A stretch of 64,000 bases of DNA, from positions 23,784-87,783 of the forward strand of contig NZ_JACIGI010000018.1 in assembly GCF_014197795.1 (NCBI RefSeq), given 5' to 3'. The position numbers and the translations under genes were made by a program. Origin of the DNA: Roseospira goensis. GTDB taxonomy: Bacteria; Pseudomonadota; Alphaproteobacteria; Rhodospirillales; Rhodospirillaceae. The notes beneath the pieces are model-generated. The model saw only the letters and a program-made list of their open reading frames with translations. It did no database searches and was not told where the DNA came from. Positions 11,321-64,000 of this stretch are shown here, one piece after another; the first letter of the stretch is position 1, and the number at the start of each line of letters is the position of its first letter.

Positions 11321-11372
11321 AGGCGCGGGGGGCGTCGGGCGGCCGGGCCTGGGGCTGTCCGACGTGACCTTA

Positions 11373-11506
11373 GCGCCGATCGCTCGAAATCGGAACCACC
11401 GGGGTGGGGCCGATTTCGAGCGTGAATCGGCGCGATCTGTTGGTTTCAGAGCGGAACGCCCGAATTCGAAATCACCATGCGATTCCGTATTCGGGCGTTC
11501 CGCTCT
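11373..11506. repeat. Two-hairpin intergenic element, copy A
   Basis: The spacer between treS and glgX holds two large hairpins. In hairpin 1 (11373-11433) GCGCCGAT + CGCTCGAAATCGG pairs with CCGATTTCGAGCG + ATCGGCGC; a TGA bulge at 11423-11425 interrupts the right arm, and the apex CCACC/GGTGG is also paired. Hairpin 2 (11448-11506) has a perfect 18-bp outer stem starting AGAGCGGAACGCCCGAAT and an inner CGAAATC/GATTCCG stem. Related elements occur at 16037, 57509 and 63706. It splits the glucan cluster and could act on transcript processing or termination. Confidence 0.9.
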
Positions 11507-11529
11507 AAGGGGGAGGGCGCGGGCCGAGC

Positions 11530-13740
11530 ATGACCACGTCGGATGTGCGCGTATGGCCCGGGCATCCCCACCCGCTGGGTGCCACCTGGGATGGTCGCGG
11601 GGTCAACTTCGCGCTGTTCTCGGCCCATGCCGAAAGGGTGGAGCTGTGCCTATTCGATGCCCGCGGGCGTGAGACCCGGGTTGAACTGCCCGAGTACACC
11701 GACGAGGTTTGGCACGGCTACCTTCCCGAGGTCGGTCCGGGACAGGTCTACGGCTATCGGGTGCACGGACCGCATGCGCCCGACCGCGGCCACTGGTTCA
11801 ACCCGCACAAGCTGTTGCTGGACCCCTATGCGCGCGCGCTGACCGGTCGGCTGGACTGGAGCGGCCCCCACTTCTGCTTCCAGCTCGGCCACCCGCGCGC
11901 CGACCTGTCCTTCTGCACCCGCGACAACGCCGCCACCATGCTGAAGGCGGTGGTGGTGGACCCGGCCGCCGGTGGTCCGGACACCGGCACGCCGCCGCGC
12001 CATCCCTGGCACACCAGCGTGCTCTACGAGATGCATGTGCGCGGCTTCACCATGCGCCATCCGGACGTGCACGAAAGCTATCGCGGCACCTTCGCCGGCC
12101 TGTCGACCCGGGCGGTGGCCGACCACCTCAGGGCGCTGGGGATCACGGCGGTGGAGCTGCTGCCGGTGCACGCCTTCGTCCATGACCGTCATTTGGTGGT
12201 CAAGGGACTCAGCAACTATTGGGGGTACAACCCCATTTCGTTTTTTGCCCCGCACCCCGGCTATCTGGCGAGTGGTAGCCTCGACGAGGTGCGGACCTTC
12301 GTGCGCGGCATGCATGACGCCGGCATCGAGGTGATCCTGGACGTGGTCTACAACCACACCGGCGAGGGCAGCCAGATGGGGCCGATGCTGTCGTTCCGCG
12401 GCATCGACAATGCGAGTTACTACCGGCTCGTGCCCGGCAATCGGCGCTACTACATGGACTCGAGTGGGTGCGGCAACACGCTGAACTTCCGCCATCACCG
12501 CGTCATCCAGTTGGTGATGGATTCGCTGCGCTACTGGGTGCAGGAGATGGGGGTGGACGGCTTCCGCTTCGACCTCGCCGCCGCGATGGGCCGTGACGTC
12601 GGCCATTTCGACCGCGATGCCAGTTTTCTGGCGGCCGCCCGCCAGGACCCCGTTCTCTCGCGCGTCAAGATGATCGCCGAGCCCTGGGACGTGGGCGAGG
12701 GCGGCTATCAGCTCGGCCAGTTCCCGCCCGGATGGGCGGAGTGGAACGACCGCTATCGGGATACGGTGCGCGGCTTCTGGCGCGGCGACGGCGGTCAGGT
12801 GCCGGACCTCGCCACCCGCCTGACCGGGTCGTCGGACATCTTCGGGCGGCGCGGGCGCAAACCGTGGGCCAGCATCAACTTCGTCACCGCGCACGACGGC
12901 TTCACCCTGGCGGATCTGGTCTCCTATGACCGCAAGCACAACGACGCCAACGGTGAGGACAACCGAGACGGCACCGACGACAACCGGAGCTGGAATCACG
13001 GCGTCGAGGGTCCGACCACGGACCATGACATCACGACGCTGCGCCGGCGCCAGAGGGTGAATCTGCTGGCGACCCTGCTGCTGTCCCAGGGGGTGCCCAT
13101 GCTGTTGGCCGGGGACGAGTTCGGCCACAGCCAGGGCGGCAACAACAATCCCTACTGCCAGGACAACCGGACCACGTGGCTGGACTGGGATCGGATCACG
13201 CCGGAGGAGCGCCGACTCACGCGGCTGGTGAGCTGGTTGATCCGGTTGCGGCGCACTCACAGCGTGTTTCACCGCGATCGGTTCTTGCGCGGAAAGGTTG
13301 TTCCCGGGACCGAAATCATCGACTCAAAATGGGTCAACGCCGACGGCCGCGAACGCCAGGTGAGCGACTGGGAAAATGGCGACACCCGCTTCGTCGGTTT
13401 GCTGTTGCGCGGTGCTGCCGGATGCTACTACGTCACGGCCACGGGCGAGCCGCGCCCGGACGACAGCTTTCTCATTTGCATGAACGCCGGCGACGAGCCT
13501 CTCACCTGCCAGCTCCCCGCTCTCGATGACGGGGGGGCGTGGCTGCCGCTGCTGGACACGGCCGATGGTCCCGTGCTGGCGGGTGCGCCGGCATCGGAGG
13601 ACGGCGATGCCTACCCGATGGCGGGCCGGTCGCTGGTGCTGTTCCGCCGGCTGCCGGTCGGCGCGGACGGGCCCGAGGCGGTGGTTGGTCCGGCGGCCCG
13701 CGGCCGGCGACAATCCGGTGTGGCCGGCGACTCATCCTGA
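11530..13740 (+). CDS. glgX: Glycogen debranching enzyme (isoamylase type)
   Basis: GlgX hydrolyses alpha-1,6 branches of glycogen, preferring short limit-dextrin side chains. The 736-residue protein has an N-terminal CBM48-like beta domain (GATWDGRGVNFALFSAHAER and YGYRVHGP), then a GH13_11 barrel: VILDVVYNHTGEG, VDGFRFDLAAAMGRD with D348, KMIAEPWDVGEGGYQLG with E384, and INFVTAHDGFTLADLVSYD. Length is slightly above the E. coli enzyme (657). The ATG at 11530 follows a GGGGGAGGG purine stretch about 12 bases upstream. It ends 17 bases before malQ, so these two are probably co-transcribed, while element A separates them from treS. Confidence 0.95.
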   Translation: MTTSDVRVWPGHPHPLGATWDGRGVNFALFSAHAERVELCLFDARGRETRVELPEYTDEVWHGYLPEVGPGQVYGYRVHGPHAPDRGHWFNPHKLLLDPYARALTGRLDWSGPHFCFQLGHPRADLSFCTRDNAATMLKAVVVDPAAGGPDTGTPPRHPWHTSVLYEMHVRGFTMRHPDVHESYRGTFAGLSTRAVADHLRALGITAVELLPVHAFVHDRHLVVKGLSNYWGYNPISFFAPHPGYLASGSLDEVRTFVRGMHDAGIEVILDVVYNHTGEGSQMGPMLSFRGIDNASYYRLVPGNRRYYMDSSGCGNTLNFRHHRVIQLVMDSLRYWVQEMGVDGFRFDLAAAMGRDVGHFDRDASFLAAARQDPVLSRVKMIAEPWDVGEGGYQLGQFPPGWAEWNDRYRDTVRGFWRGDGGQVPDLATRLTGSSDIFGRRGRKPWASINFVTAHDGFTLADLVSYDRKHNDANGEDNRDGTDDNRSWNHGVEGPTTDHDITTLRRRQRVNLLATLLLSQGVPMLLAGDEFGHSQGGNNNPYCQDNRTTWLDWDRITPEERRLTRLVSWLIRLRRTHSVFHRDRFLRGKVVPGTEIIDSKWVNADGRERQVSDWENGDTRFVGLLLRGAAGCYYVTATGEPRPDDSFLICMNAGDEPLTCQLPALDDGGAWLPLLDTADGPVLAGAPASEDGDAYPMAGRSLVLFRRLPVGADGPEAVVGPAARGRRQSGVAGDSS

Positions 13741-15980: not shown

Positions 15981-16036
15981 GCCGGACCGGGGTCGGTCCC
16001 TGGCCGGTCCCGCCGGTGTCGGGCGACCCCACGGTA

Positions 16037-16116
16037 CAGCCGATGGCGACACACCGGACTCGCGGCGCGATTTCGGATGGTCGCCATAGAGCCGATCCGC
16101 CCTCGGGGATGCGGCT
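16037..16116. repeat. Two-hairpin intergenic element, copy D (short form)
   Basis: Hairpin 1 has ATGGCGAC (16043-16050) paired with GTCGCCAT (16080-16087). Hairpin 2 (16090-16116) pairs AGCCG/CGGCT and ATCC/GGAT. Bases 16037-16076 match 63706-63745 at about 36 of 40 positions, including a 24-base block with one difference, so the two are copies of one element. It lies in the 586-base malQ-nuoA spacer (15981-16566), which otherwise shows only the nuoA promoter candidate. Confidence 0.8.
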
Positions 16117-57322: not shown

Positions 57323-57508
57323 GGGCAACAGGCATGTTTTGTGCGACGGGCATGTTTGTGCGACGGGCAGGGCGCGGCGTGCCCCCGCAGGCGCCGTTCG
57401 GGCCGTCATGGGGACGGCCAGGATGACTCGGAGAACTCTTCCTTGGACTCCCTGCGTGCCGGGTCCCACATTGGGAAGACGGCCGGGCGCGGCGCGCGCG
57501 GGCCGTTG

Positions 57509-57646
57509 AGAGCCGATCGTTCGAAATCGAAACCGCAGATGCGCTCCGATTTCGAACGTGAGTCGGCTCTACATTATTGATTTTAGAGCAGAGTCACGCG
57601 CCAGAATGGGGCCGAGGCGCGATTCCATTTTGGCGCGATCTGCTCT
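57509..57646. repeat. Two-hairpin intergenic element, copy B
   Basis: Hairpin 1 (57509-57570): AGAGCCGA and CGTTCGAAATCG pair with CGATTTCGAACG and TCGGCTCT, with a T opposite a TGAG bulge. Hairpin 2 (57585-57646): AGAGCAGA + CGCGCCAGAATGG pairs with CCATTTTGGCGCG + TCTGCTCT around a GTCA bulge in the left arm. Hairpin 1 matches copy A hairpin 1 closely, with paired changes such as C-G replaced by T-A. Hairpin 2 shares AGTCACGCG with copy C. It lies in the 539-base argB-eipB spacer. Confidence 0.9.
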
Positions 57647-57685
57647 ATGAATTGGTTGGGCCGCCGAGCACAGGAGAGATCCGGC

Positions 57686-63639: not shown

Positions 63640-63705
63640 CGGGTCGCCGGTCCGGTGACGCCGGGCGGCATGCCGACCAGCCTCCAACAAACCCGGGGCG
63701 GTTTA

Positions 63706-63840
63706 CAGCCGAGTGCGACAAACCGGACTCGCGGCACGATTTCGGTTTGTCGGAAAAATCGGCTGAAAATCATATAGGTCGCGCGGAGTCACGCGATCAA
63801 TCCGAACCACATCGTGGTTCCGATTGATCGCGATCCGCGC
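63706..63840. repeat. Two-hairpin intergenic element, copy C
   Basis: Hairpin 1 (63706-63765): CAGCCGA and CGACAAACCG pair with CGGTTTGTCG and TCGGCTG around an internal loop; the apex is the 24-base block shared with copy D. Hairpin 2 (63781-63840): GCGCGGA + CGCGATCAATC pairs with GATTGATCGCG + TCCGCGC with a GTCA bulge, plus an inner GAACCAC/GTGGTTC stem. It follows the histidine kinase gene. After it, 63841-64000 has no gene I can support; GGGAGG at about 63990 may serve a gene starting just past the window. Confidence 0.9.
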
Positions 63841-64000
63841 TCGGTATCACATCGCCAGGGCGATGGTATGAGAAAGTGCTGCGGGATGGGATCGACGCAA
63901 AAAAGAGGTTCATGACGGAAAATCGGGGAGGGGCGGACAACGGGACGGTCTGACACACTGGTAGTTGCGACACGACACAGACTGCCAGGGAGGCCCCGTT

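Follow-up and report, generated by a model that had tools for sequence, protein, structure and literature searches.

The window analysed here, a 64,000-nt stretch of the Roseospira goensis genome, carries four copies of a palindromic intergenic element. The first (11371..11507, + strand) is a complete two-hairpin element in which a type A-like hairpin (11371-11435) is followed by a linker and a mirrored type D hairpin (11447-11507), with TA at both ends. The second (16035..16098, +) is degenerate: it consists of a single type C hairpin, and the first bases of a second hairpin are left (CATAGAGCCGAT). The third (57508..57647, +) is complete and comprises a type A hairpin (57508-57571), an AT-rich linker of 12 nt (57572..57583, +) that is constant among the A-B and A-C types, and a mirrored type B hairpin (57584-57647); its left TA is mutated to GA. 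The fourth (63704..63842, +), also complete, carries a type C hairpin (63704-63767), a linker and a mirrored type E hairpin (63780-63841), its right TA being mutated to TC. Folded as single strands, the 11371, 57508 and 63704 elements gave z scores of -10.6, -7.9 and -7.9 (reached by 0/200 dinucleotide shuffles each), and the segment 16035-16125 gave a z score of -3.1 (2/200 dinucleotide shuffles).

The original prediction was of four loci with two hairpins each, sharing the same asymmetric bulge in five stems and lying directly after the 3' end of a gene. All four loci are present and three are complete pairs, the 16035 locus being one intact hairpin plus a stub. The GTGA/TCAC bulge was found in 4 of the 7 hairpins (those starting at 11371, 57508, 57584 and 63780), whereas both type C hairpins carry other letters and the 11447 hairpin has no bulge. 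Three of the four copies do lie shortly after a gene, at 50, 54 and 64 nt past a predicted stop codon, but the 57508 copy is located 361 nt past one gene and directly before the next, for which the gene finder set the start at ATG 57647 and ATG 57686, behind AGGAGA, looks likelier. Gene starts are approximate throughout, and the glgX-like region 11530-13530 is without a gene call.

The elements follow a single plan, in which a hairpin of roughly 64 nt and its mirrored counterpart are joined by a short AT-rich linker and each hairpin is bordered by TA on both sides. In the commonest type the linker is 12 nt long and reads CATTATTGATTT. Each hairpin consists of an outer arm and, after it, the inverted copy of that arm; the linker-facing arm is longer by 3 bases, and the resulting one-sided 3-nt bulge faces the linker. 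Among 92 element calls there were 63 pairs, mirrored with the bulged arm adjoining the linker in 58/63 and arranged in tandem in 5/63, and the length was 137, 139 or 140 bp in 30 of the 33 intact mirrored pairs (range 136-141). Hairpin types A, B and C are common and types D and E also occur; A pairs with B or C, in either overall orientation. With truncated copies counted, TA was present at the left end of 58 and at the right end of 63 of the 92 calls. The proposal of one family with a two-palindrome build and a conserved one-sided bulge is supported. Solo hairpins of 61-64 nt were also seen (L110, L111 and L089 429-492); they correspond to the outer halves of two different types and are apparently deletion derivatives of pairs.

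A search of this genome and its relatives with a covariance model (R1, built from 58 hairpins) returned far more than four copies. The R. goensis genome gave 153 matches, of which the 150 listed fall in 145 distinct places. The copy at 57509 recurs at 39 other places in the same genome at E <= 1.1e-25, and 17 other copies are 95-99% identical to 11371-11507 over at least 130 nt. Matches to R1 were also present in 12 of 79 relatives and in 21 of the 385 class genomes, R. goensis itself being in both counts, which amounts to 31 other alphaproteobacterial genomes; the loci there are built alike but differ greatly in their stem letters. The spread is patchy, with dozens of copies in several R1-positive genomes and none in most genera. 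These copy counts are lower bounds, since R1 misses a pair with the same linker in the Rhodospirillales MAG TGS_PRO24 (L061). PLSDB plasmids gave no match to a full-length element. Rfam 15 gave 0 matches in the window at gathering thresholds, and a literature search of open-licence papers returned no earlier work on these repeats. The outcomes that would have refuted the original prediction thus did not occur.

Several observations indicate that the elements have moved. The gap orthologous to that of 11371-11507 contained no R1 copy in 6/6 genus relatives and this absence, combined with the near-identical copies, points to recent movement. An empty-site alignment of the 11371 locus with the six genus relatives revealed no TA junction, the intergenic DNA being too diverged. 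Two nested insertions (L080 and L093) are both into a type C hairpin, the uninterrupted letters of which are available from other copies, and in both exactly TA was doubled. Among 42 clean elements, the pre-insertion target was YTAR in 29. The comparison set was 672 free non-coding TA sites, 83 of them YTAR, taken from the same 307 kb, which had been picked around elements. Clean elements are those with TA at both computed ends; the 50 other calls among the 92 are truncated, mutated or nested and were left out. When only intact mirrored (+/-) pairs were considered, a stricter selection, 26/33 targets were YTAR.

The ends of the elements often coincide with stop codons. In the common types the element starts with TAG on either strand, with TAC at type C ends. 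The TAG of the element is the first in-frame stop of a neighbouring predicted gene in 28 of the 92 calls, and the stop codon of the neighbouring gene in 16 of the 33 intact pairs. Stop codons at YTAR were found at 14 of 26 occupied sites and at 9 of 83 free sites (Fisher p 1.5e-5). Of 72 ends tested in the 31 other genomes, 18 provide the stop of a long ORF in frame, compared with 0/72 and 1/72 in the shifted frames, a low estimate as inner ends are among those tested. A gene whose TAG or TAA stop codon is hit regains a stop from the element and is spared. Such insertions are enriched, presumably owing to their harmlessness; the data do not distinguish purging of insertions elsewhere from a preference for the target. 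One instance is a CcrM-type methylase gene (L089 3438-4658, G000:C15), whose frame ends at the TAG of a GANTC-bearing element; in genus relatives the same gene stops at a TAG without an element (G002, G004) or at TGA (G001, G003, G006).

The genes surrounding the elements were also informative. Both neighbouring genes were called for 76 elements, which lay between convergent genes in 34 cases, tandem genes in 40 and divergent genes in 2, compared with 14, 77 and 19 for 110 element-free gaps in the same regions; only 2/92 elements were inside a predicted gene. These counts support the predicted association with gene 3' ends, a bias that follows from the YTAR/stop-codon target plus purging. TAG ends combined with landing in stop codons provide a mobile element with a simple route to harmlessness, and account for the position of the repeats along gene ends with no need for an RNA role.

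An RNA role would mean that the copies act as transcribed gene-end hairpins terminating, processing or stabilising mRNA, with their structure under selection. The folds are very stable, and the rarity of intact or degenerate elements between divergent genes (2/76 versus 19/110 element-free gaps) fits such a role, as does the covariation between hairpin types. Between types, 91.3% of cells were paired compared with 78.5% after shuffling, double-change cells numbered 165 compared with 61, and the covariation score was 0.361 compared with 0.142 in shuffled and at most 0.082 in slid controls; counted by pairs, double changes were less striking (14 pairs versus 11.0, reached by 15/500 shuffles). 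The compensating changes noticed in the outer stems are thus real, and the covariation between stem types exceeds controls. Within types A, B and C, by contrast, changes mostly break pairs and few are compensated: 142 changed cells were broken, 49 were G-U, 9 were compensated and 3 were uncompensated double changes. The 9 compensated changes compare with 3.4 expected from shuffles, an excess that is clear only in type A (4/300). As covariation is strong between types and weak within them, resident copies mainly decay and an RNA function is not needed; we attribute the covariation between types to mobile source elements, whose arms would be constrained or copied from one another, and not to resident copies. 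Furthermore, copies occur in both orientations, the absence at orthologous sites and the near-identical copies indicate recent insertion, and the gene-end bias already follows from target and purging. Selection for an RNA-level role is therefore very unlikely, and the data can be explained without copies that stop or protect transcripts.

Combined, these results make it highly probable that the repeats are non-autonomous mini-transposons (MITEs) of the IS630/Tc1-mariner type and that a transposase of the IS630 family mobilises them in trans. The outer arms have TAGAGC-like ends and GANYC (GAAYC) at position 23 in 127 of 150 cases here, and GANYC is found at position 23 in 41 of the 65 hairpins from other genomes that are 60-66 nt long. 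IS630 elements bounded by TAGAGC, including ISRm2011-2 of S. meliloti, carry GAATC at position 23 of one end in 7/7 cases and of the other end in 0/7. These seven elements were picked for their TAGAGC bounds, one per genome or plasmid, and are related, so that their agreement reflects homology and not seven independent events. The transposase pieces of two TAGAGC-bounded elements score as IS630 (NF033545, best 1.1e-35 and 2.6e-44). In an IS630 element of G003 (L138 972-2028), the transposase is split over two overlapping frames, possibly through frameshifting or decay.

RIME, ABC and Bru-RS are alphaproteobacterial intergenic palindromic repeats, and kinship with RIME had been considered in the original prediction. 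The comparison with these families was indirect, made via S. meliloti pSymB (1.68 Mb) only, on which R1 gave four weak matches at E<=1. The best two of the four (E 0.23, 16.9 bits) fall on copies of one terminus, which is annotated at another place as IS630-like ISRm2011-2, and are in exact register with the terminal TA. Kinship with RIME was not supported in this indirect comparison, the best matches being ends of the IS630 family, and the repeats are better seen as IS630-type MITEs of the CIR kind.

We infer the mover from relatives, as the R. goensis genome gave no match to the DDE_3 (PF13358) transposase of IS630. PF13358 was likewise without a match in 4 of the 11 other positive relatives and in 10 of the 20 positive class genomes; it was present in 17 of 32 repeat-bearing genomes (limits 1e-5 and 1e-10). 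Of the 52 DDE_3 loci, 11 were recognised as TAGAGC-bounded IS630 elements with ends 1052-1059 bp apart; they came from 6 of the 32 positive genomes. MITE arms and IS630 ends diverge considerably outside TAGAGC and the GAATC box, and no single genome yielded an IS and a MITE with nearly identical ends. Since a MITE may persist after its partner has been lost, a missing autonomous IS630 weakens the case for membership without excluding it. In the mechanism that we propose, both outer ends of the MITE would have been copied from the end of an ISRm2011-2-like IS630 element that is proximal to the transposase. A transposase encoded by an autonomous element located elsewhere in the cell, or formerly present in the lineage, would bind the outer arms, cut at the outer TA and insert the unit into a new YTAR site. 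The 3-base asymmetry may let it tell the outer ends, which are cut, from the inner ends, and the resident copies would mostly decay after insertion.

TA or YTAR targets are also used by other families, and the MITE could be moved by one of these, for instance by an IS whose end, TAGCAGGCTGCGG, adjoins the hairpins. This end lies directly at the hairpin-flanking TAs in L002, L092 and L111, and no IS630 transposase was found in the R. goensis genome though some copies are 99% identical. However, the TAGCAGGCTGCGG end is unlike the hairpin arms, whereas IS630 ends resemble them at fixed spacing, and a mover outside IS630 is very unlikely. At the same three loci (G000 C4, C33 and C21, respectively), a repeated IS end, TAGCAGGCTGCGGAAAAAGGC, adjoins the hairpins exactly at the flanking TA.

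Another IS, ISL3-like with AGGTTCATGACGG ends, interrupts the linkers of L091 and L105. It was considered as the autonomous partner and rejected because its ends do not match the hairpins; it is a passenger in AT-rich linkers only. A terminus of this high-copy IS also occupies the contig end of the window (63907-64000), the same 93-101 bp being present at 19 other listed places of the genome, mostly contig ends. A 28-aa C-terminus of the IS was found 23 times and has a weak match to PF01610 DDE_Tnp_ISL3 (E 0.013, below cut-off).

Imperfect palindromes in alternating orientation around a linker also resemble BIMEs, which would make the family REP/BIME-like and moved by a RAYT (Y1) transposase. 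PF01797, looked for as the RAYT domain, was without a match in 9 of 12 repeat-bearing relatives; it gave one weak match (8.6e-6) in R. goensis and one each in G050 and G055. The TA duplication and hairpins of 64 nt do not fit this class either, REPs being given as 20-40 bp in the accessible part of PMC3733652, and movement by a RAYT is extremely improbable.

The hairpins are rich in GANTC sites. At least one GANTC was present in 127 of 137 hairpins here and in 67 of 73 elsewhere, and the density was 17.3 per kb in elements compared with 1.54 outside (183 sites versus 41 in shuffled elements). In types B, C and D, the position-23 GANTC is near the loop, and the other site is in the basal bulge. 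The transposase-proximal ends of the IS630 elements carry two or three GANTC within 60 bp, with 19 sites in 7 ends and 0 in the 7 opposite ends. It could be argued from the GANTC content of the hairpins, and from the presence of RAMA (a CcrM-type domain) in 18 of 22 repeat-bearing genomes, that the repeats are domesticated CcrM sites that spread by seeding methylation sites serving the cell cycle. However, RAMA was not found in G112, G133, G173 and G414 and their copies still carry GANTC, which speaks against a need for CcrM. In addition, the position-23 GANTC is common to the IS630 end and may simply be a transposase site, and the hairpins belong to few types and are not independent. A domesticated role is thus highly improbable.

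Among repeats of other bacteria, RUP of Streptococcus pneumoniae is also a MITE of about 100 bp with TA targets and a proposed IS630 mover; it differs by its one-stem build and its sequence, and landing in stop codons is not mentioned in the accessible part of PMC2229807. According to the same partial text, ERIC and Correia/NEMIS are likewise small TA-ended palindromic mobile elements with many intergenic copies, but they form one stem by end-to-end pairing and have other sequences and hosts (PMC2229807). The ISRm2011-2-like IS630 elements share with the present family the TAGAGC termini, the TA ends, GAATC at position 23 and, in the transposase-proximal end, further GANTC at 36-42 and/or 55-60; they differ in being 1052-1059 bp long and in having a transposase gene.

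The CIR repeats (Caulobacter CcrM-associated intergenic repeats) were reportedly described by Chen and Shapiro in 2003. They are the closest described kind, compared here by description only, from the accessible parts of PMC2229807 and PMC10969869. The CIR of Caulobacter and Brucella have in common with our elements two long inverted-repeat arms with a linker, TA termini, GANTC sites, an intergenic location and alphaproteobacterial hosts. The elements described here are longer, at about 137-140 bp compared with about 110 for CIR. Their GANTC sites are at position 23 and within the basal bulge; those of CIR are described at or near one terminal loop (PMC2229807). It is conceivable, though doubtful, that the two-arm repeats of the CIR type found across alphaproteobacteria descend from IS630 as a single MITE superfamily and that CcrM gates their transposition; activity would then belong to ends that have just been replicated and are hemimethylated. 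This reading builds on the GANTC sites of the transposase-proximal IS630 ends and on their retention in the MITE hairpins, and the copy at the end of the CcrM gene is in keeping with it. Dam acts in this way on Tn10 and Tn5, according to the part of PMC5390034 that was available. If GANTC gates transposition, the cell cycle would be linked to mobile DNA in alphaproteobacteria as it is by Dam in enterobacteria. The target duplication and the mover of CIR are given as unknown in the accessible part of the review (PMC2229807), and for such two-arm repeats a TA duplication together with an IS630 transposase constitutes a testable answer.
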